DNA of 61,584 nucleotides from Candidatus Endomicrobiellum porotermitis (lineage in GTDB: Bacteria > Elusimicrobiota > Endomicrobiia > Endomicrobiales > Endomicrobiaceae): the NCBI GenBank assembly GCA_031289055.1, contig JAITQE010000023.1, positions 1 through 61,584 of the forward strand, read 5' to 3'. Position 1 is the stretch's first letter; each line of letters begins with the position of its first letter. Under the pieces are notes generated by a model, which worked only from the letters and a program-made list of their open reading frames with translations, made no database searches and was not told the DNA's origin. Below are positions 46,005-57,257 of the stretch, piece after piece. Made by a program: the position numbers and the translations under genes.

Positions 46005-46664
46005 TTAAGCTCTCGGGTGGCGAATATCCTTGCCATGCACCATAAAAATTACATCTTCGCAAACGTTAGTCGCGTGATCGCCAAGCCGCTCTATGCTTTT
46101 AGCTATAAACATCAAGTCCGTCGCCCGTTGAATAGTATCCGAATCATGCAATTTAATCAGCACTGTTTTCAATTCGCTTATAATTGCGTCCCTTAAAGCA
46201 TCTACTTCGTTATCTTTAGATAAAACAGACATGGCTAAATCAGAATCGCTAGTATTAAAAGATTTTATACAATCTATAATCATATTTTGAACAATCCCTA
46301 TCATCTTTGGAATATTGACGAGAGGCTTGATTTCAGGATACTTTATTAAATCTAAAGACATCTTGGCTATGTTTAAAGACTCGTCTCCCATTCTCTCTAA
46401 ATCGCTGTTGATTCGCATCGCCGAAGTTATAAATCTTAAATCCGCTCCCGCCGGTTGGTTTAAAGCTATAAGTTTTAAACATTTATCGTCAATAACTATT
46501 TCCTGAATATTAACTTCTTTTTCCAAAGAAAGAACCGCGTCTATTTGATTGGGATCTCTGGAAACAAGCTCATTAGTCGCTGCTTGTATCATTTTTTGAA
46601 CAAGACCCGCCATATCAAGAAGATGATTTTGTAAGTTGCTCATTTCAACGTCAAAGTGCCGCAT
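46005..46664 (-). CDS. phoU: Phosphate signalling regulator PhoU
   Basis: This 219-aa protein consists of two PhoU three-helix repeats, each with the metal-binding E/DxxxD-type motif (RINSDLERMGDESLNIA and AKSIERLGDHATNVCEDV). It dampens PhoR signalling by contact with PstB. It follows pstB by 12 bp. No pstS, pstC, pstA or phoR/phoB gene is in the window. Confidence 0.92.
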   Translation of the reverse strand: MRHFDVEMSNLQNHLLDMAGLVQKMIQAATNELVSRDPNQIDAVLSLEKEVNIQEIVIDDKCLKLIALNQPAGADLRFITSAMRINSDLERMGDESLNIAKMSLDLIKYPEIKPLVNIPKMIGIVQNMIIDCIKSFNTSDSDLAMSVLSKDNEVDALRDAIISELKTVLIKLHDSDTIQRATDLMFIAKSIERLGDHATNVCEDVIFMVHGKDIRHPRA

Positions 46665-46676
46665 ACCGGTGCCTCC

Positions 46677-47432
46677 TTAACCAAACCTGCCGCTGACATA
46701 ATCGTCAGTTTCTTTTCTTGATGGATTAGTAAATATTTTCTCAGTTTTATCAAACTCTATAAGCCTACCCATAAACATAAAAGCCGTCTCTTGCGAAACT
46801 CTGGCCGCTTGCTGCATATTGTGCGTTACTATTACTATCGTATAATTCTCTTTGAGCTTAATAATCAACTCTTCAATATTTCTCGTGGCAACAGGATCGA
46901 GAGACGAACACGGCTCGTCAAGAAGAATAATACGCGGAGCTATAGCAATAACCCTTGCTATACAAAGCCTCTGTTGCTGTTCCAAAGTTAAAGATAACGC
47001 CGACTTACGAAGCTTATCTTTTATATCGTTCCATAACAAAACGGCTTTTAAACTTTTTTCTACTGTTTCATTTATAACGTCTTTATCCGAAGCTATTCTG
47101 TTTACTTTAAGGCCAAAAGCCACATTTTCATGAATTGAAATTGGAAAAGGATTAGGTCTTTGGAAAACCATTCCTACGTTTTTCCTTAACATATCTACAT
47201 CGGTATCTTCAGCATAAATATTACGATTTGAAATATTTATTTCACCGACGGTATAAACATCGTCTATTGTGTCATTAATTCTGTTTATAGACCTCAATAG
47301 CGTGGATTTTCCGCACCCTGAAGGACCTATCATGGCAGTTACGCGGTTTTCCCCTATGCTTATGTTAATATCTTTAAGCGCATGAAAATCAGAATAATAC
47401 AGATTAAAATTTTTTATTTTTATTATGGACAT
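46677..47432 (-). CDS. pstB: Phosphate transporter ATPase PstB with degenerate ABC signature
   Basis: I use the start at 47432 (MSIIKIKNFNLYYSDFHA), which has AGGAG about 12 nt upstream; the open frame reaches 47468 but the extra 12 residues are unrelated. Walker A GPSGCGKST, the Q-loop and Walker B RIILLDEPCSSLD are intact. The ABC signature, normally LSGGQQQRLCIAR, reads LTLEQQQRLCIAR. The two Gly that contact ATP across the dimer are lost, so ATP hydrolysis should be impaired. With no pstSCA beside it, the gene may be retained for PhoU-linked signalling or be decaying. Confidence 0.9.
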   Translation of the reverse strand: MSIIKIKNFNLYYSDFHALKDINISIGENRVTAMIGPSGCGKSTLLRSINRINDTIDDVYTVGEINISNRNIYAEDTDVDMLRKNVGMVFQRPNPFPISIHENVAFGLKVNRIASDKDVINETVEKSLKAVLLWNDIKDKLRKSALSLTLEQQQRLCIARVIAIAPRIILLDEPCSSLDPVATRNIEELIIKLKENYTIVIVTHNMQQAARVSQETAFMFMGRLIEFDKTEKIFTNPSRKETDDYVSGRFG

Positions 47433-47471
47433 AACAAAACTACTCCTAACCTCTGCAATAACAAACAAAGA

Positions 47472-48407
47472 TTAAAACTGCATATTTCTTAAAATATTTA
47501 AAGCGAGCTCTACCGAGTCTCTACCCTGTTCTCCTGAAACAGCGGGCTTTTTGCCTTCTATAACGCTGCTTATGAAGTTATCCAATTCATAAAAAAGCGG
47601 TTCATTTGGCGGGAGTTTGGGTTTCTTTACGTCTATATCAAAAAGCGACGTAATTTTTTCTCTCCCATCTTTTTTTGCATAAACTTTAAGATTTTTTCCA
47701 GCATAGTCTATTGAAACATAGCTATCAGGCTGGAAAATCCTTATCTTCCTATACTTTTCCATAGAAACTCTGCTTGCAGAAACATCTGCCACACAACCGC
47801 CGGCATATCTTAGCCTAACCTTAGCAATATCCTCAGTGTCTGATAGAATTTTGGCTCCGTGAGCTTCCAAAGACACAACTTTATCTTTAACAAGATAAAA
47901 CAATATGTCCAGGTCGTGTATCATCAAGTCTAAAACCACGCCGATATGATTAGTTCTTGGATCGTATGGTCCAAGTCTGTTAACCTCAATAAACTTAGGG
48001 CTGCTGATAAACGGAGCGGCAGCTATGATTGCAGGATTAAATCTTTCAACATGACCGACTTGTAGAACTAAATTTCTAAATTTTGCTATTTCTATAAGTT
48101 CTTCCGCCTCGGCAACGTTTAAAGTAAAAGGTTTTTCCACCAAACAATGAACGCCGCTTTGTAAAAGAGGTTTTGCAACTTGATAGTGATACGGCGTCGG
48201 AACGGATATAACCGCAGCGTCAACGTATCCGACAAGCTCATTAAAATCTGTTAAGTAATTTGTTTTGTTGGCTTTCGCTATTTTTTTAGCTCTTTCGGCG
48301 TCGGCATCTACAACAAATTCAAGTTTTGAATCAGGGCGCTCCCCCAAAATTCTGGCGTGATGTTGTCCTAGAGAGCCAACTCCTATTACTGCGGTCCTTA
48401 TACTCAT
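47472..48407 (-). CDS. Gfo/Idh/MocA oxidoreductase, probable UDP-GlcNAc 3-dehydrogenase GnnA
   Basis: This 311-aa protein has the N-terminal Rossmann motif GVGSLGQHHA and the family EKPF (LVEKPFTLN), then the GfoIdh C-terminal domain. It overlaps the DegT aminotransferase by 4 bp at the end of the lipid A operon. In Acidithiobacillus and Leptospira a dehydrogenase/aminotransferase pair next to lpxA (GnnA/GnnB) makes UDP-2,3-diamino-glucose derivatives for amide-linked lipid A. The same job is inferred here from context. Another surface sugar pathway is possible. Confidence 0.75.
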   Translation of the reverse strand: MSIRTAVIGVGSLGQHHARILGERPDSKLEFVVDADAERAKKIAKANKTNYLTDFNELVGYVDAAVISVPTPYHYQVAKPLLQSGVHCLVEKPFTLNVAEAEELIEIAKFRNLVLQVGHVERFNPAIIAAAPFISSPKFIEVNRLGPYDPRTNHIGVVLDLMIHDLDILFYLVKDKVVSLEAHGAKILSDTEDIAKVRLRYAGGCVADVSASRVSMEKYRKIRIFQPDSYVSIDYAGKNLKVYAKKDGREKITSLFDIDVKKPKLPPNEPLFYELDNFISSVIEGKKPAVSGEQGRDSVELALNILRNMQF

Positions 48408-49498
48408 TTTTTATAACTCTTTACTACTTTAATTATTTCGTCAACTTCCGCCGCTAAAAGCGACGGATGGACAGGAAGAGACACGACTTCCATCGCGGCT
48501 TTTTCAGCTTCTTTACAAAGACCAGATTTATATCCGAGTTTTTTATAAAGCGGCTGCTTATATATTACGCAAGGATAATAAATTCCGCTTCCTACGCCCT
48601 TATCGGCAAGACGCTTCATAAAACTCTCTCTTTCCTTTGAAGAAACTCTTACCGTATATTGATGAAAAACATGCCTGCAATTTTCAGGAACGTAAGGGGT
48701 TTGCAAAAACTCTAAATCTTTAAAAGCTTCGTTGTATTTTTTTGCATTCGCTATTCTTTTTTCAATCCAACTTTCAAGCTGTCCAAGTTGAGCTACGCCT
48801 ATAGCCGCAGCTAAGTTTGTCAATCTGAAATTATATCCTAAAACTGTATGCGTAGAATGCCCTTCTCTGCCATGGTTTATAATTTGCCTGCCATATTTAT
48901 CGGCTTTTGCGTCATTTGTAAGAACTATTCCTCCTTCTCCGGTCATCATATTCTTCGTCGCATAAAAAGAAAATGCCGAAGCGTTGCCAAAAGATCCCGC
49001 TTTTTTATTTTTAAATTCCGCTCCATGCGCCTGGCAAGCATCTTCTATAAGCTTAAATTTATATTTCTTTTTCAACTTTAGAATCGCGTCCATATTGCAA
49101 GTAAGCCCGTACAAATGCGCTATTATGACAGCTTTAACATTCTTTTCTTTTTTTAACGTCTCTTCCAACTTAATAGAATCTATGTTAAAGGTTTTCGGAT
49201 CAATGTCTGCAAAAATTGGTTTTGCTCCGCAAAAAAGAACGGAGTTGGCAGTAGCTATAAAAGTAAAAGGAGTAGTAATTACCTTGTCGCCGGGCTTAAT
49301 GCCAAACATCAAAAGCGCCGTATGGAGAGACGTAGTTCCGTTAGCGTTAGCTATGCCAAATTTAGCGCCGCAATACTCTGCAAAAGATTGTTCAAATTGC
49401 GATACGTATTTGCCGCTCGCTAAAATTCTTGAGTTCAAAACGTCGTTTACCAACCGTCTTTCTCTCTCTCCGATAATCGGACAAGCAACATTTATCAT
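48404..49498 (-). CDS. DegT/DnrJ/EryC1 aminotransferase, probable GnnB
   Basis: This 364-aa PLP-dependent sugar aminotransferase has the family pattern: NGTTSLHTAL at the cofactor site, EDACQAHGA (Asp-Gln pair on PLP), and the Schiff-base Lys in FYATKNMMTGEGG. It would put an amino group on a nucleotide keto-sugar. It lies between lpxI and the Gfo/Idh gene. Paired with the latter it would make the 3-amino sugar for lipid A (GnnB role), an inference from the operon. Confidence 0.8.
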   Translation of the reverse strand: MINVACPIIGERERRLVNDVLNSRILASGKYVSQFEQSFAEYCGAKFGIANANGTTSLHTALLMFGIKPGDKVITTPFTFIATANSVLFCGAKPIFADIDPKTFNIDSIKLEETLKKEKNVKAVIIAHLYGLTCNMDAILKLKKKYKFKLIEDACQAHGAEFKNKKAGSFGNASAFSFYATKNMMTGEGGIVLTNDAKADKYGRQIINHGREGHSTHTVLGYNFRLTNLAAAIGVAQLGQLESWIEKRIANAKKYNEAFKDLEFLQTPYVPENCRHVFHQYTVRVSSKERESFMKRLADKGVGSGIYYPCVIYKQPLYKKLGYKSGLCKEAEKAAMEVVSLPVHPSLLAAEVDEIIKVVKSYKK

Positions 49499-49515
49499 TT
49501 TTTACCTCTGTTATT

Positions 49516-50316
49516 TTATATTCCAATTATAGTCGCGCCGAGCTTTTTCGCTTTTTCTATCACTTCATCTTTATCCAACATCAAGGTAACGCCGGACTCT
49601 ATCGCTATTGCTCTTACTTTGTTTTCTTTTAAAGTATCAATTGTGTTAAGCCCTATAACGGGAACGTCAAACCTAAAATCTTGATTTGGCTTTGCAACTT
49701 TAACAACTATAGAATTTGCTCCGCCAAGAGCATACGCTCTTTTAATACATTCATCCGTCCCTTCTACAGATTCCACCGCAAGAACAGACTTATCTTTCAC
49801 AACAACAGTCTGACCTATGTCAAACCCTGAAATATCTTTAGCTATTTTATATCCAAACTCCGCGTCTTTATTTTCATCTGAAGAAAGCTTCTTTCCGGCT
49901 ATCAAACCTTTTGGGGCAAGCAAATGTTCTAGATAGGCATGAGACACTATAAGATGCATTCCATCCTTTTCAAATTCGTCGGCAATTGTTTTTAGGATTG
50001 TATCAGTTTTCTTATTTATCAAACTTCCCATTACTTTAATAGCGCGAAAGTCCATGCTTATAGCAGAATAAATTTTTACGTGTTGAACTTGCCCCGCCAT
50101 TATAACAGTTTTCACATTTTCGCTTTTTAGAACATCTATAATTTTCTGAAACTTTCCTACTGAAAGCCAATATGTTTTATCGCAGATTTTTTCCAAATCA
50201 GAATCGGCTTCTTCTTTTAGAGCAATGCAAATTACTCTATCGCCGCTTCTTTTTATTTCTTCGGCAACCAAGAACGGAAATCTGTTGTTTCCTGCTATCA
50301 AGCCTATATTTTCCAC
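49516..50316 (-). CDS. lpxI: UDP-2,3-diacylglucosamine pyrophosphatase LpxI
   Basis: This 266-aa protein is of the LpxI (DUF1009) family, which replaces LpxH in many bacteria. The start IGLIAGNNRFPFLVAEE and the C-terminal block SIVVKVAKPNQDFRFDVPVIG, GLNTIDTL match. It cleaves UDP-2,3-diacylglucosamine to lipid X and UMP. It follows lpxA by 23 bp in the lipid A operon. Confidence 0.9.
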   Translation of the reverse strand: MENIGLIAGNNRFPFLVAEEIKRSGDRVICIALKEEADSDLEKICDKTYWLSVGKFQKIIDVLKSENVKTVIMAGQVQHVKIYSAISMDFRAIKVMGSLINKKTDTILKTIADEFEKDGMHLIVSHAYLEHLLAPKGLIAGKKLSSDENKDAEFGYKIAKDISGFDIGQTVVVKDKSVLAVESVEGTDECIKRAYALGGANSIVVKVAKPNQDFRFDVPVIGLNTIDTLKENKVRAIAIESGVTLMLDKDEVIEKAKKLGATIIGI

Positions 50317-50339
50317 TATCGTAATAACTCCTTAAAAAA

Positions 50340-51104
50340 CTATCCGGGTCTGGCAATACCTCTTTGGGAATTTTTAATAAACGCTACTATTTCTTGCACC
50401 GCTATAGATTTACTTTGTCCAAGCTCTGACAAAGCATCTTTGAGCATTAACTTTGACATAAAAAGAATGCGGTACGCCTCTTTCACAGCGTTAATTTCTT
50501 CCGTAGGCATTTTTCTTCTTCTCATACCTACCAAGTTCAAACCGTTCGGCGCGGCTCTATATCCCGCACACAAGACGTAAGGAATTATATCCATTGTAAC
50601 AGTAGCGCCCGAGCCAACCATAACGCCCTTCCCGACTTTAGTAAGCTGATGCAAACCTACGGTAGCGCTTACAAAAGCATCATCTCCAACCTCTACGTGT
50701 CCACCTATTGCAGAACAATTTGCAACAATAACATTGTTACCTACTCTAGCGTCGTGAGCCGCGTGCGACGACGCCATAAAATAACAATTTTTTCCTATGA
50801 TTGTTTTTCCCGTCTTGGCAGATCCTCTGTTAAAAGTTACGAACTCTCTGGCTACGGTCCCGTCGCCTACGAAAACTCTTGAAGGTTCATCTTTATAGCT
50901 TAAATCCTGAGGAGCTGTTCCAATAGAAGCTGAATGGTAAATTTTACAATTCTTACCGATTTCGGCGTATTCTATGTAAGCGTTTGAACCAATAATGGCG
51001 CCATCGCCTATTACAACATCTTTGCCTATCACCGTATAAGCGCCTATTACGACATTGTTGCCTATAATAACAGATTTATCAATTATCGCAGTTTGGTGTA
51101 TCAT
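50340..51104 (-). CDS. lpxA: LpxA-like acyltransferase, second copy
   Basis: This 254-aa left-handed beta-helix acyltransferase is the second of two tandem copies, separated by 2 bp. The catalytic His is kept in FMASSHAAHDARVG, and the C-terminal helical domain ends SQRGIARPG. It differs from the other copy around the acyl and substrate pocket (GLHQLTKVG versus GVHQFCKIG; CAGYRAAPNGLN versus QGDRAVLVGLN). It may have a different acceptor (O- versus N-acylation) or acyl length. Confidence 0.88.
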   Translation of the reverse strand: MIHQTAIIDKSVIIGNNVVIGAYTVIGKDVVIGDGAIIGSNAYIEYAEIGKNCKIYHSASIGTAPQDLSYKDEPSRVFVGDGTVAREFVTFNRGSAKTGKTIIGKNCYFMASSHAAHDARVGNNVIVANCSAIGGHVEVGDDAFVSATVGLHQLTKVGKGVMVGSGATVTMDIIPYVLCAGYRAAPNGLNLVGMRRRKMPTEEINAVKEAYRILFMSKLMLKDALSELGQSKSIAVQEIVAFIKNSQRGIARPG

Positions 51105-51106
51105 TT

Positions 51107-51877
51107 TTACCCCTGTCTTGGTCTGGCAATACCTCTTTGGGAATTTTCTATAAAAAGCATCATTTCTTTAACATATTGAGACGATGAGTCCTTAAGCTTA
51201 ACAACAGCGTCTTCCAGAGACAATTTTGACATAAACAATACTCTGTAAGCGTCTTTTATATCTTCAATTTCTAAAAGTTTCACTTTTTTTCTTTTTAAAC
51301 CTATGAGATTTAAGCCAACAAGAACGGCTCTATCGCCTTGAGCCGTTACGTATGGAACAATATCCATGCTTACCATTGAACCCGCGCCGATAATTGCGGA
51401 TTTCCCGATTTTGCAAAATTGATGGACGCCTATTGCAGAGCTTAGTATAGCGCTGTCGTCTATTTCAACATGACCCGCAAGACCCGTAGAATAGCCAATT
51501 ATAACGTTATCGCTTATTATACAGTCGTGAGCAACATGAGCGCAAGCCATAATTAAACAGTTTTTACCTACAACAGTCCGACCGGCGGCCGCAGTGCCTC
51601 TGTTTAAAGTAACGCTCTCTCTGATAGTTGTTCCATCGCCGACTACAACTTTCGTCTTTTCGCCTTGATATTTTAAATCCTGAGGACGTTTGCCTATTGA
51701 CGAAAAATTAAAAATTTCGCAGTTATGTCCTATTTCGGCGTATTCAATTACAGATTGACCATGTATTTTTGTTCCGCTTTTTACAACGGTATCCGGACCA
51801 ATAACGGCATAAGGACCTATTTCTACATTATCCTCTATAACAGCACTTTTATCTATTACAGCCGTTTGATGTACCAT
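51107..51877 (-). CDS. lpxA: UDP-GlcNAc O-acyltransferase LpxA, first copy
   Basis: This 256-aa protein has hexapeptide repeats and the LpxA centre MACAHVAHDC with the catalytic His, then GVHQFCKIG close to the E. coli LpxA sequence. It catalyses the first step of lipid A synthesis. Of the two tandem copies it is the more canonical. It is separated from lpxC-fabZ by 117 bp that contain an AT-rich stretch with TATAAT (about 51919-51930), possibly an internal promoter. Confidence 0.92.
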   Translation of the reverse strand: MVHQTAVIDKSAVIEDNVEIGPYAVIGPDTVVKSGTKIHGQSVIEYAEIGHNCEIFNFSSIGKRPQDLKYQGEKTKVVVGDGTTIRESVTLNRGTAAAGRTVVGKNCLIMACAHVAHDCIISDNVIIGYSTGLAGHVEIDDSAILSSAIGVHQFCKIGKSAIIGAGSMVSMDIVPYVTAQGDRAVLVGLNLIGLKRKKVKLLEIEDIKDAYRVLFMSKLSLEDAVVKLKDSSSQYVKEMMLFIENSQRGIARPRQG

Positions 51878-51994: not shown

Positions 51995-53338
51995 TTATTG
52001 CTCTCTGTCTACAATAATAAACATAAACTCAGCTTCCGTTGCTAATTTCCCGCCGACATAAGCTTCGCCTCTCACCTTTCCGTGTTTTCCGCCGTCTTTG
52101 ATAATTTCAACTCTTAACTCAAGCAAGTCTCCGGGTCTTACGGGTTTGCGAAATTTTGTTTTATCTATAGACATAAAATACGCAAGCTTTCCCTGCATTT
52201 CGGACTTGGATAGAAACATAACGCACGACGTTTGAGCCATAGCCTCAACTATTAGAACGCCCGGCATAATCGGCGCGCCCGGAAAATGTCCCTGAAAAAA
52301 ACCTTCGTTGCCGCTCACACACTTATAGCCTATAGCTTTAGTAGGCTCCGCGCTATTTATTTTAATTTTGTCTATCATTAAAAACGGATATCTATGCGGT
52401 ATATATTTTAGAACTTCTTCATGGGATAGAATTCTTTCCGTTCCAGACGTTTCGCAATTTGCGCTCATTCTGCCCTCCGCTTGTTTATCTTCTTCTATAA
52501 CCGCTTCTTCTAAGAATGCTTTCACAAAAGCAATATTATTTTGATGTCCAGGCTTATCTGCAACTATTTTGGCTTTTATCGGTTTGCCGGCAAGGTACAA
52601 GTCTCCAATTAAGTCCAAAATTTTATGTCTTACAAACTCGTCATCGTAACGCAAAGGCTCTTTATTATGAATGCCGTTTAATCCCAAAACAATAGCATTG
52701 TCCATAGAGCCGCCAAGGGCAAGACCATTATTTTGAAGAGCCTCTATTTCATAGTCAAAACAAAACGTTTTAGCAGGAGCAATGTTGTTTAAATAATCGT
52801 CCTTGCTTACGCTCCCAAAAGACATTTGTTGAAATTTTAACAGCGGATGATCAAAACCTATAGTGCAGTCTATTTCAAATTTATCTGAAGGGTAAGCCGT
52901 TATTTTAGTTTTTCCCGACTCGAAGCAAATAGGTTTCTTTATTACATAATATTGTTTGGGAGAATCCAGCGCTTTTAGTCCGCCCTTCAACAAAGTTTCC
53001 GCTATTATTTTTGCGCTGCCGTCAAGAATTGGAGGCTCGTTGTTGGTTATCTCTATAATTAAATTATCAATGCCAAGCGCTGCGCATGCCGACATTATAT
53101 GTTCTATCGTATGAATTCTAACGCCGTCTTTCTCTATAACGCTGCCTCTAACAACAAGACCTGGAGCTGCATTGGAATAAAGAGCCGCAATTTCAGGCTT
53201 ATTTGGCAAATCTACCCTGATAAATTTTATACCAAATCCAGCAGCGGCAGGTTTAAAAACCACAACGCTTTTATTTCCTGTGTGGAGACCAATGCCTTCA
53301 ACGGAAACTTCTTTCACAATAGTCGTTTGTTTTGCCAT
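51995..53338 (-). CDS. lpxC-fabZ: Bifunctional LpxC deacetylase / FabZ dehydratase fusion
   Basis: A 447-aa fusion. Residues 1 to about 300 are the LpxC zinc deacetylase, with His76, Glu79 and His80 in HTIEHIMSA and a second metal site in RHKILDLIGDLYL. From about residue 310 comes FabZ (YIPHRYPFLMIDKI, then FQGHFPGAPIMPGVL with its active-site His/Glu region). It couples commitment to lipid A with unsaturated acyl-ACP dehydration, whose product is the LpxA/D acyl donor. Such fusions are known in Bacteroidota and Elusimicrobiota. Confidence 0.95.
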   Translation of the reverse strand: MAKQTTIVKEVSVEGIGLHTGNKSVVVFKPAAAGFGIKFIRVDLPNKPEIAALYSNAAPGLVVRGSVIEKDGVRIHTIEHIMSACAALGIDNLIIEITNNEPPILDGSAKIIAETLLKGGLKALDSPKQYYVIKKPICFESGKTKITAYPSDKFEIDCTIGFDHPLLKFQQMSFGSVSKDDYLNNIAPAKTFCFDYEIEALQNNGLALGGSMDNAIVLGLNGIHNKEPLRYDDEFVRHKILDLIGDLYLAGKPIKAKIVADKPGHQNNIAFVKAFLEEAVIEEDKQAEGRMSANCETSGTERILSHEEVLKYIPHRYPFLMIDKIKINSAEPTKAIGYKCVSGNEGFFQGHFPGAPIMPGVLIVEAMAQTSCVMFLSKSEMQGKLAYFMSIDKTKFRKPVRPGDLLELRVEIIKDGGKHGKVRGEAYVGGKLATEAEFMFIIVDREQ

Positions 53339-53344
53339 TTAAAT

Positions 53345-54373
53345 TTACTTATCCTCCAAATCTTTCTTTATTTTTCTTAAATCAGAATACATTTTAGGAA
53401 GTTTTCTCATTAAGGCTCTTATCTTTATGCTTTGATTCAGCGGAGCCATGGGATTACCGCCGACAATACCTCCATCTTTAACATTTCCGGAAATACCAGA
53501 TTGGCTTGAAATCATAACATTATTGCCTATTTTTATATGTCCTGCAATTCCAGTCTGCCCGCCTATCGTCACATTATCGCCTAAGTGGGTAGATCCGGAT
53601 ATTCCAACTTGCGAAACTATTATGCAATTCTCGCCTACTTGAACATTGTGGGCTATCATGACAAGATTGTCTATTTTTGCGCCGTTTCCTATTCTTGTAG
53701 CGTCAACGGTAGCTCTGTCAATTGTAGTGTTAGAACCTATTTCAACGTCATTGCCTATTTCTACCCTTCCTATTTGAGGAATTTTCTGAGCTTTGCCATC
53801 AACAGAAACAAATCCAAAACCATCGCCGCCGATAACAACGCATGGCTGCAAAACAACTCTATCGCCTATCAAAGAATTTTCTCTTATTACGACATTAGGG
53901 TATATAAGACAATCTTTGCCGATTTTTACGTCTCTGCCTATGTAAACGTTAGGAAAAATTTTAGCGTTGTCTCCAATTTCAGCCCCGTTCTCAATTACAA
54001 CGTTCTGCCCTATATAAGGGTCTTTGCCGATTTTGGCTTTATCAGATATTGACGCCGAGCGATGAATTTTTTTATTTATTAAAGATAATCTTTCTTTTTC
54101 TATAATGGAAAGAACCACACTGTACGCATACTGAGGATTTTTAACTTTGATTATGTTTTTATTTTTGAACTGGACAGCGTCAGTATTAAGCCCAACAAGA
54201 ATAGCGCCGGCTCGAGTATTTAGCGCATCATGAAGATATTTCAAATTCCCCAAAAAAGAAACTTCATTGTTTTTTGCTTCTAAAAGACCATTTACGCCTG
54301 TTAAAACAACATCTTTATCGCCAATAAGTTCGCCTGAAACAACTGCCGCAAGCTCAAATGCTGTAAATCTCAT
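53345..54373 (-). CDS. lpxD: UDP-3-O-acylglucosamine N-acyltransferase LpxD
   Basis: This 342-aa protein has the N-terminal LpxD uridine-binding domain ([20 protein letters not shown]), hexapeptide beta-helix coils, the catalytic His in MIAHNVQVG, and a C-terminal helical cap. It N-acylates UDP-3-O-acyl-glucosamine after LpxC. Its ATG is one base from the stop of ompH. Operon order: bamA, ompH, lpxD, lpxC-fabZ. Confidence 0.94.
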
Positions 54374-54970
54374 CTATCTATCCTTTGCCATTTTTATAAC
54401 TTCATCAGTCACATCTTTACATTTTTCGGTTACAACGACCTGTTTATCTAAAACTATCGTCGCGCCGTATTTTTTAAGTTCTTCTCTGAGCAAAGATTCT
54501 ATATCCTTTAATACTCCAGCCGTATTCCTTTCTTCCATTAAAACTATTTCAACTTTTGTTCTTTCAGACAAGTCGGAAATATCTGATTTCTTAACGTTTA
54601 TCAACTCGCCAATATCGCTTAACTGTTTGAAAAGCTCGTCCAAAGGCTTATTTTCAGACTTTGCTTCCGATATTTTTAAATTAACAATTTTCGCTTGTTC
54701 TTTAAGAGAATTAAACTCTTTTACAAGGTTCTCGATAGCATCTTTGCGCGTCCTTACAAAAGCTTTTATTTCCTTTTTATACTCTAAAGTCATCGGGTGA
54801 GAATTAAAAACCTTCTCCATATCAACAAAAATAATATTATTTTCGGCAGTTTTATTTCTAGCGGGCTCATCAATGCGTTCAACCGCTCCGTTTATAGGTA
54901 TTTCAAAACAAAAAGCGACTGCCATAAATAAGAAAAAAACAACAACAGAAAATATTTTTCTTAAAACCAT
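54374..54970 (-). CDS. OmpH/Skp-like periplasmic chaperone
   Basis: This 198-aa protein has a signal peptide (cleavage near AFCFE), the OmpH/Skp start IIFVDMEKVFNSHP, and a long charged coiled coil (about 55-150) ending in a short beta domain with ATIVLDKQ. It probably holds unfolded outer-membrane proteins on the way to BamA, its upstream neighbour. The bamA-skp-lpxD order is widespread. Confidence 0.88.
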   Translation of the reverse strand: MVLRKIFSVVVFFLFMAVAFCFEIPINGAVERIDEPARNKTAENNIIFVDMEKVFNSHPMTLEYKKEIKAFVRTRKDAIENLVKEFNSLKEQAKIVNLKISEAKSENKPLDELFKQLSDIGELINVKKSDISDLSERTKVEIVLMEERNTAGVLKDIESLLREELKKYGATIVLDKQVVVTEKCKDVTDEVIKMAKDR

Positions 54971-55004: not shown

Positions 55005-57257
55005 CTACGGGAAACCTATGGAGAAGTATACGGCTTGCAAATTCTCTTTTTCTTTATGATTAAACCCGTACGCCCAACCAATTCTTATAGGAAACGCCGG
55101 CGTCGCAATTCTCAATTCAAACCCTGCCGAAGAACGAAGATTGTTTTCCTCAGTTCCAAGCCATTTTAGAGTTCCGTGCCTTCCCCAATCGCCGCCTATA
55201 TCGTAAAAAAGCGCGCCGACTAAAATTGAGTTGCCCCTCTCGGCGACTAGCGGGCATTTATATTCAAAATTAATAACGGCTTTATAGTTACCGCCGTCAT
55301 CAGGACCGATTTCCGCTCTATACTTATAACCTCTTACGCTTTCTGGTCCGCCTGTGTAAAACCTCTCGTAAATAGGCACTGTCGTTGAACGTCCATAAGA
55401 TACTATAGAACCGACTTCCACCCTTGCGCTAAATACAAACTTCCAAAATACAGGCAAAAACCAAGAGCTTTTTAAAACCGTCCTTACATAATCAACTTCT
55501 CCGCCAAAGTAAGATCCTGCAAGGTTTACGCTCAACGCTTGTCTGTTGCCGCTTGTTGGATCATATCTATAGTCCAACGAATCGTAGACTACTTGCGTAA
55601 ATACGCTGGTTGTTCTATCTTTAGATAAATCATCTGACGCTTCTTCTATCTTCTGTTTTACTGAATTGTCAATATTGGAAAGCATTACGTTTTCGTATCT
55701 GTAGCCAAACATTAAACTTACAAGCGAGCTGATTCTAGGACCTATGCCGACTGAAAAACCTGTTCTATGTTCGTCATAAGCATTAGTAACGTCGGCATAA
55801 TCCTTCTTTCTAACCATATCAAACGCGCTTAACGTTAAACTTGCATTTTTGTCAAAAATATAAGGCTCCGTCCAACTTATATTGAAATTTGTCTTTTTCT
55901 TTCCGTACTCAACCGAGAAATCCAAGCGCTGACCCAAACCAAACAAGTCCATATGCATAAGACCGCATGTAAAAACAACTTCGTCAACTGAAGAATAACC
56001 TACGCCAGCATTGACGTTGCCTGGTTTTCCTTCCATAATTTCAATGGCTAAATCTACAATATTAGGAGCGCCGGTAGGCAGCAAATGAGGCTCAACGCCG
56101 TCAATGAACCCTAAGTTCCTTATTCTTTGCATACTTCCTATAAGCTTCTTTCTTGAAAATACGTTTTCAGGCTTTAATAATAACTCTCTTCTGATAACTT
56201 TTTCTTTAGTGGACTCCAGCCCTTCTATATAAATATTTCCAACATAAACCACTGAATTTTCTTTTATACTCCAATCAACGTCCACAATATCGCCGCTCTT
56301 ATGAAAATCTGGAACAATCTGAGCTTGAAGATACCCTTTATCCGCATAAGACTCGGCAATCTCCTGTTTTGTTTCGGCAATTTTTTGCTCGTTAAACACT
56401 TGTCCCTTTTTAAATTTTACCGTCTTTTTTAACTCTTTGTCTTCTAATACAAAATTACCATCAAAAGCAACTTCTCCTATCTTATATTTGCCGCCTTCGC
56501 TTACGTTCAAAGTCAAAAATATTTCCGTTCTAGCTTTGTTGAAAGAAGTCGTAGACGTTGCCAGTTTATAATCTATAAAACCGTTGTTTTTATAAAAAGC
56601 CTCTATATCTAATAAATCCTTTTGATAATTTTCATCTTTAAATATTTTCTTAGGTCTTATTTTTTTCATAAGTTTAAGAATTTTTTTCTCAGAGTATGAA
56701 ATAGCGCCTTCAATTTTAACGCCGCCTATTAAAATTTTATTATTTTCCGTTATAAGGAAAGTTACGGTCATTTTATTTGTATCTACGTCAACGGTTGGAT
56801 AAGCTTCAATAACGCAATCGGCATACCCTTTGTCGCCGTACAACTTTATTATCTTTTTTTTTGATTCTTCCAGCTTTAAAATATCATAGAACTCTTTTTC
56901 TTTTAAAACGCTGACGCCTTTAAGCTTATTTTTTGAAAATTCAAAATTGCCTCTAAAAACAATATTGTCTATATAAGGCTTTTCAACAACGTCAAACGTA
57001 AGAACCCCAGTATTTCTATCAAAAGTAAAAGTACAGTCGTCAAAATATTCAAGCTCAGTAATAGAACGAACTGCATCTCTGACTGACTCTAAAGAATATA
57101 CCTTGCCCTTTTTAAGTTTTATTTCAGATAAAACGCTTTTTTCTTTTACGTTGCGCAAACCTTCAATATTTAATTTAGAAATTATATTATCGGCATAAGC
57201 GAACGCGGACATTAACGCGCTAACGCACAGCACTGTCAAAAACAAACGAAGTTTCAC
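55005..57257 (-). CDS. bamA: Outer-membrane assembly factor BamA
   Basis: This 750-aa protein has a signal peptide (cleavage near AFAYA), five POTRA domains (about 22-395) and a C-terminal 16-stranded barrel. The barrel has the family signature GGPESVRGYKY and ends with a final beta-signal phenylalanine (YFSIGFP). It inserts barrel proteins such as LptD and TolC. The start is GTG with a perfect AGGAGG six bases upstream. It heads the envelope operon that continues to lpxA, lpxI and the sugar genes. Confidence 0.95.
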   Translation of the reverse strand: MKLRLFLTVLCVSALMSAFAYADNIISKLNIEGLRNVKEKSVLSEIKLKKGKVYSLESVRDAVRSITELEYFDDCTFTFDRNTGVLTFDVVEKPYIDNIVFRGNFEFSKNKLKGVSVLKEKEFYDILKLEESKKKIIKLYGDKGYADCVIEAYPTVDVDTNKMTVTFLITENNKILIGGVKIEGAISYSEKKILKLMKKIRPKKIFKDENYQKDLLDIEAFYKNNGFIDYKLATSTTSFNKARTEIFLTLNVSEGGKYKIGEVAFDGNFVLEDKELKKTVKFKKGQVFNEQKIAETKQEIAESYADKGYLQAQIVPDFHKSGDIVDVDWSIKENSVVYVGNIYIEGLESTKEKVIRRELLLKPENVFSRKKLIGSMQRIRNLGFIDGVEPHLLPTGAPNIVDLAIEIMEGKPGNVNAGVGYSSVDEVVFTCGLMHMDLFGLGQRLDFSVEYGKKKTNFNISWTEPYIFDKNASLTLSAFDMVRKKDYADVTNAYDEHRTGFSVGIGPRISSLVSLMFGYRYENVMLSNIDNSVKQKIEEASDDLSKDRTTSVFTQVVYDSLDYRYDPTSGNRQALSVNLAGSYFGGEVDYVRTVLKSSWFLPVFWKFVFSARVEVGSIVSYGRSTTVPIYERFYTGGPESVRGYKYRAEIGPDDGGNYKAVINFEYKCPLVAERGNSILVGALFYDIGGDWGRHGTLKWLGTEENNLRSSAGFELRIATPAFPIRIGWAYGFNHKEKENLQAVYFSIGFP

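Follow-up and report, generated by a model that had tools for sequence, protein, structure and literature searches.

A lipid A operon with two diverged LpxA paralogues and a predicted UDP-GlcNAc3N-forming gene pair in Candidatus Endomicrobiellum porotermitis

Lipid A with a hybrid backbone of 2,3-diamino-2,3-dideoxyglucose (GlcN3N) and glucosamine (GlcN) has been shown chemically in Capnocytophaga canimorsus, which carries lpxA, a second copy lpxA', gnnA and gnnB, and its two LpxA acyltransferases have been proposed as the cause of the hybrid backbone (PMC3342949). The reaction of GnnA and GnnB, which yields the 3-amino derivative (UDP-GlcNAc3N) of uridine diphosphate N-acetylglucosamine (UDP-GlcNAc), is known from Acidithiobacillus ferrooxidans (cited in PMC8036547, PMC3342949), and gnnA/gnnB have also been described in Campylobacter jejuni (PMC8036547). 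Two diverged LpxA proteins of approximately 45% identity, for which a difference in substrate is proposed, occur in Segatella copri and other Bacteroidetes (PMC12643348). Here we describe a lipid A operon of Candidatus Endomicrobiellum porotermitis in which two tandem lpxA genes are followed by lpxI, a DegT-family aminotransferase gene (degT) and a Gfo/Idh/MocA oxidoreductase gene (gfo). It lies in a stretch of 61,584 nucleotides (nt) of contig JAITQE010000023.1, which in its entirety is referred to as the window. The family Endomicrobiaceae (Elusimicrobiota) includes the free-living isolate E. proavitum as well as endosymbionts of flagellates, in the latter of which lipopolysaccharide (LPS) genes have been reported to be pseudogenes or absent (PMC4505116, PMC11257099). 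We found no literature on the structure of lipid A in Elusimicrobiota.

The closest precedent for this operon is that of the dog-mouth bacterium C. canimorsus, a member of another phylum, which likewise combines two lpxA genes with a Gfo/DegT pair; the likeness is to the published description, the GnnB and second LpxA sequences of C. canimorsus lying outside our comparison. The two LpxA genes of S. copri are far apart by locus tag, with a proposed difference in acyl chains and no mention of a Gnn pair (PMC12643348), whereas the genes described here are in tandem and accompanied by degT and gfo. Our best reading is that the gene set is a variation on the arrangement known from C. canimorsus, with a DegT from a branch that differs from GnnA-adjacent GnnB.

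From the gene content, phylogeny, purifying selection, joint retention of degT and gfo, and fixed residue changes set out below, we infer with modest confidence that two specialized LpxA enzymes are supplied by a dehydrogenase of the GnnA family together with an aminotransferase that is GnnB-like without being orthologous to GnnB, and that the resulting lipid A is a mixture or hybrid of GlcN and GlcN3N. In this scheme, both enzymatic steps, the identity of the sugar and the way in which the acyl chains are linked are predictions. Gfo would oxidize UDP-GlcNAc at C3, and DegT, although from a branch other than known GnnB, would aminate the resulting 3-keto sugar to UDP-GlcNAc3N. LpxA2, in which the lysine in contact with the GlcNAc ring is missing, would be the likely N-acyltransferase on UDP-GlcNAc3N, while LpxA1, with this lysine kept and its acyl groove remodelled, would be the likely O-acyltransferase on UDP-GlcNAc, with some residual use of UDP-GlcNAc3N. 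The products of both enzymes would then pass through LpxC, LpxD, LpxI and LpxB, and the resulting lipid A backbone would be mixed or hybrid.

The initial annotation had placed the DegT and Gfo genes directly after a tandem lpxA pair and lpxI, at the close of the lipid A operon. All five genes were found as described on the minus strand: lpxA1 (51107..51877), lpxA2 (50340..51104), lpxI (49516..50316), degT (48404..49498) and gfo (47472..48407). Gaps of 2-23 nt separate lpxA1, lpxA2, lpxI and degT, and degT shares 4 nt with gfo. This order is kept in most genomes of the genus, which was sampled with 42 species with genomes of approximately 0.2-1.4 Mb, and the arrangement is therefore not due to chance. 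While degT and gfo are the last genes of the lpx set here, the closing gene is not lpxB, and pstB comes next downstream. The genome from which the window derives (G000) is 92% complete, and since LpxB and LpxK are encoded elsewhere in its 1.04 Mb, it is plausible that the lipid A pathway is functional.

The Gfo protein (311 amino acids, aa; PF01408, 94 bits) has 7bvj as its best match in the PDB, at 188 bits against 72 bits for the second-best entry, and the EKP and DLMIHD motifs are invariant between the two. We take 7bvj to be A. ferrooxidans GnnA, so that the likeness to the A. ferrooxidans system consists in a Gfo of the 7bvj family and a gene pair located in the lpx operon. Phylogenetically, Gfo belongs to one tree family with gnnA-type genes that have an aminotransferase gene as partner in Geobacteraceae and Gammaproteobacteria. 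The top model for Gfo is NF040723, an archaeal UDP-GlcNAc 3-dehydrogenase equivalog, at 217.8 bits, which is below the cut-off of 450 for this archaeal model. The earlier proposal of a GnnA is thus borne out at the family level, and membership of this family supports the prediction that Gfo oxidizes UDP-GlcNAc at C3.

Throughout most of the phylum, lpx operons contain a Gfo gene without an adjacent degT, and the same is seen in other phyla, among them Nitrospirota, Acidobacteriota and Gemmatimonadota. Two Elusimicrobiota genomes with such a lone lpx Gfo (G041 and G055) yielded no DegT at E<=1e-30, and most of the other lone-Gfo Elusimicrobiota carry a DegT of the GnnB/WbpE type at another site in the genome. 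The position of Gfo in the lpx operon is old, and because Gfo without DegT is so widespread, and two genomes have no DegT, Gfo alone is not proof of GlcN3N and cannot be used as a mark of it in the many phyla in which it is common. A GnnA-family Gfo after lpxI, with no aminotransferase neighbour, can be seen in loci L067, L070, L071, L073-L077, L084, L086 and L087, a layout found in most Elusimicrobiota.

The DegT protein (364 aa; PF01041, 387 bits) is a sugar aminotransferase dependent on pyridoxal phosphate (PLP). Its AlphaFold2 model has the DegT fold with a mean per-residue confidence score (pLDDT) of 92, and the PLP lysine, K182, is invariant. No second DegT-family protein was found in the genome of approximately 1 Mb (E<=1e-8), and DegT genes in lpx operons are limited to four families of the order (f1, f2, f4 and f5). 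Across the 42 genomes of the genus, DegT and Gfo are either both intact or both absent or decayed, if contig breaks and distant DegT paralogues are set aside. In two other genera of the family (g29 and g32), the pair lies together outside the lpx operon, which has no Gfo of its own wherever the pair has moved (L223-L227 vs L233, L234, L250 and L251). The neighbours of the moved pair at the two loci checked (L223 and L226) are genes for a FadL-like porin, a spermidine-synthase-like protein and other unrelated proteins, with an uncharacterized nucleotidyltransferase gene also nearby in L226; no dehydratase or other sugar-nucleotide pathway was found beside the pair at these two loci. Because the pair moves without other sugar enzymes, a two-step modification of UDP-GlcNAc fits better than a longer sugar pathway, and a unit converting UDP-GlcNAc to UDP-GlcNAc3N is the best reading of its predicted chemistry. 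We set aside the Wbp pathway to UDP-2,3-diacetamido-2,3-dideoxyglucuronic acid, UDP-GlcNAc(3NAc)A, since the pair, even when it has moved, is accompanied by neither an acetyltransferase nor a dehydrogenase of this route, and the genome has a single DegT.

LpxA1 and LpxA2 share 52.6% identity. Both score above the cut-offs of TIGR01852 (291 and 286 bits, respectively, vs 231) and NF003657, and both retain H122, H125, H144, Q161, N198 and R204 (E. coli numbering, used throughout), including the catalytic histidine. In a tree with the wider family, LpxA1 (32 rows) and LpxA2 (27 rows) form clades with support of 100/100 and 100/99, respectively. A single duplication within the family gave rise to both; genera g29-g32, with one copy each, branch earlier. 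A recent duplication is ruled out by the level of identity and by the placement of the event at the base of several genera: the duplication is old, and the two copies are sister clades. Purifying selection is indicated by dN/dS values of 0.06-0.39 across the two LpxA copies, DegT and Gfo, and values of 0.07-0.39 rule out that either lpxA copy of this genome is a decaying pseudogene. LpxA2 does not fall in the clade of L. interrogans LpxA; any preference for GlcNAc3N would have arisen by convergence with the Leptospira-type enzyme.

A second, independent tandem duplication of lpxA was observed in a genome of family f2 (G036; L066:2167-3869), where DegT is also present. The first copy has D74S, Y116 and F152, the latter two as in LpxA2. 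In family f8 (L074, L077, L080, L081 and L083), the LpxA open reading frame (ORF) spans 434-466 aa, approximately 180 aa above the usual length, possibly as a fusion with FabZ.

The most constant difference between the two copies lies at residue 76, where the lysine is lost in 27/27 LpxA2 rows (Ser, Gly, Asn or Cys; Ser in the window) and kept in 32/32 LpxA1 rows. In E. coli, K76 is listed among the essential residues (PMC4322802) and forms a hydrogen bond to the oxygen of the GlcNAc ring (PMC6286764); in P. aeruginosa, it contacts the 6-OH (PMC7072397). The same position is Gly71 in LpxA of L. interrogans (3hsq; PMC7072397) and Ser in that of C. jejuni. Since the loss of K76 in every LpxA2 row matches the state in Leptospira and Campylobacter, it supports LpxA2 as the candidate N-acylating copy, the likeness to L. 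interrogans LpxA being one of residue and not of clade. Both L. interrogans and C. jejuni make GlcN3N lipid A. Intact LpxA2 was never seen without intact DegT and Gfo among the 42 genomes. The fixed changes in LpxA1 (G136, Y137, G140 and a small residue at 156) are in or near the acyl groove. Residue 173, the ruler residue of E. coli LpxA, is mostly A in LpxA1 and S/V/T/I in LpxA2 of the genus; in sister genera, several rows of either copy have Gly there, and once these genera had been sampled, residue 173 was dropped as the chief difference between the copies. Copies of lpxA are also found beside or near gnnA (and gnnB) in beta- and gammaproteobacteria (L105:1992-2774, L108:9120-9992, L136:5590-6381, L100:11757-12836 and L113:12146-12916). 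L108 additionally has an ordinary lpxA with fabZ. In the tree, Leptospira LpxA is joined (96*, long branches) by LpxA proteins encoded next to gnnAB in Rhodocyclales and Methylococcaceae, and the copies of L100, L113, L105 and L136 fall in this group.

Several observations weigh against the proposed scheme, beginning with the identity of the aminotransferase. DegT forms its own clade (100/100), apart from the branch (99/86) that holds WbpE, Pcryo_0616 (8e75) and GnnA-adjacent GnnB, and an approximately unbiased (AU) test rejects joining DegT with the last of these (p=0.0008), the GnnB references being genes beside GnnA in Geobacteraceae and Gammaproteobacteria and not those of Leptospira, Campylobacter or Capnocytophaga. 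The PLP loop of DegT reads SFYATKNMMTGEGG, as against SFFPSKNLGxxGDGG (C3-type) in enzymes of the GnnB/WbpE branch, and its KNMMTGEGG portion resembles the loops of the C4 enzymes PerA (KIITTGEGG) and ArnB, and is thus of the C4-aminotransferase type. A Foldseek comparison of the AlphaFold model did not separate C3 from C4 enzymes. Because DegT lies outside the GnnB/WbpE clade, orthology to GnnB is unsupported, and a canonical GnnB is ruled out by the tree and the AU test. What survives of the original GnnB assignment is the role of a GnnB-like partner, to which the coupling, joint loss and joint relocation with Gfo point.

The division of labour between the LpxA copies meets similar difficulties. 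K76 is also kept in single-LpxA relatives that have DegT and Gfo, and in some LpxA proteins of gnnA-gnnB loci (Geobacteraceae, L109, L110 and L117), and its loss is therefore not a perfect mark of gnnAB-linked LpxA: it suggests use of GlcNAc3N but is not required for it. In addition, G001, G014, G028, G029 and G062 have lost LpxA2 and retain LpxA1 only, with DegT and Gfo intact, and in three of them (G001, G014 and G062) the pair has dN/dS values of 0.14-0.19. The six LpxA1-only genomes of the genus form one group (86/91). Since the pair is kept under purifying selection in such genomes, LpxA2 is not the sole user of its product, and LpxA1 must use this product there if it goes to lipid A. LpxA1 is a pseudogene in G024, where LpxA2, DegT and Gfo are intact, and G017 has kept LpxA1, with LpxA2 absent and DegT and Gfo present as remnants. 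The suggestion that the two copies split N- and O-acylation stands as a division of tasks, for which the fixed sugar-site changes of LpxA2 and the fixed acyl-groove changes of LpxA1 both speak, but a strict separation of N- from O-acylation is doubtful. An older LpxA that used both sugars, followed by a partial division of labour, fits these observations.

Some of this evidence could also be read as a sorting of acyl chains by length or branching, with the pair making UDP-GlcNAc3N and both LpxA enzymes using both sugars. The fixed acyl-groove changes of LpxA1, the contrast at residue 173 within the genus and the five genomes that keep DegT and Gfo with LpxA1 only are all consistent with this; the constancy of the sugar-contact difference at K76 and the Gly at 173 in sister-genus rows of both copies are not, and we regard it as somewhat unlikely. 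A further explanation, which we hold to be improbable, is that DegT and Gfo make another amino sugar nucleotide (for example, one with a C4 amine or another configuration) for lipid A or the envelope, and no GlcN3N. The separate DegT clade, its PerA-like loop and the inability of Foldseek to tell C3 from C4 enzymes would agree with such a product, but its partner Gfo is of the GnnA family, for which action at C3 is expected, no dehydratase or other sugar pathway lies by the moved pairs examined, and LpxA2 has lost K76 as in LpxA enzymes that use GlcNAc3N.

The many lpx-operon Gfo genes without DegT, in most of Elusimicrobiota and many other phyla, raise the possibility that Gfo serves lipid A in an older way that does not involve amination, with DegT as a later neighbour of separate function. 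The two genomes with a lone lpx Gfo and no DegT (G041 and G055) are in keeping with this. In the family of the present genome, however, DegT and Gfo share one history of retention, loss and relocation, and most other Elusimicrobiota with a lone Gfo have a GnnB/WbpE-type DegT elsewhere; an independent role for Gfo here thus appears very unlikely.

If the preferred scheme of a GnnA-family dehydrogenase and a GnnB-like aminotransferase feeding two specialized LpxA enzymes is true, these bacteria would be a further lineage with amide-linked lipid A, made through an aminotransferase from a second branch of the DegT family, and LpxA1 and LpxA2 would be a natural set of paralogues that names K76 as a testable residue for O- versus N-acylation by LpxA. 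More tentatively, GlcN3N lipid A may have arisen here through recruitment of a DegT from outside the GnnB branch beside a resident lpx Gfo, with the later LpxA duplication and loss of K76 giving a dedicated N-acyltransferase independent of the Leptospira type, and with stepwise loss in flagellate endosymbionts recorded in the genomes. The genus holds natural knock-outs (LpxA1 lost, LpxA2 lost, pair lost and all lost) from which the order of erosion of lipid A modification during endosymbiosis could be read.

A genome of the same genus (G065, L255; 1.11 Mb) has lpxD, lpxC, both lpxA genes, lpxI, degT, gfo and lpxB all fragmented, which matches reports of LPS pseudogenes in flagellate endosymbionts (PMC4505116, PMC11257099); bamA is still open beside the pseudogene pieces of this lpxD-to-lpxB operon. 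Repeated lpxA1/lpxA2 fragments with internal stops were observed on a short contig of G020 (L053:1-2343), a 96% complete genome in which neither DegT nor Gfo was found. In the same family, G071 has a one-contig genome of 1,588,979 bases, and the E. proavitum genome probably holds both lpxA copies together with degT and gfo (G071).

The remaining genes of the operon in the window are also on the minus strand, in the order bamA, ompH/skp-like, lpxD, lpxC-fabZ, lpxA1, lpxA2, lpxI, degT, gfo and then pstB. The lpxC-fabZ fusion (51995..53338) scores 473 bits over the NF009667 cut-off, and lpxI encodes a UDP-2,3-diacylglucosamine diphosphatase with both LpxI Pfam domains (PF06230 and PF17930). The lpxD ORF (53345..54373) was named from its translation and operon position and gives a weak second match to the LpxA profile, as expected for LpxD. 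The ompH/skp-like (54374-54970) and bamA (55005-57257) ORFs, named from their translations, lie upstream of the lpx genes in an order kept in relatives. Downstream, the lpx operon continues into pstB and phoU (46005-47468) in Candidatus Endomicrobiellum porotermitis and its closest relatives. In many other genomes, lpxB follows gfo; in this genome it is on another contig (G000:C25:27140-28135).

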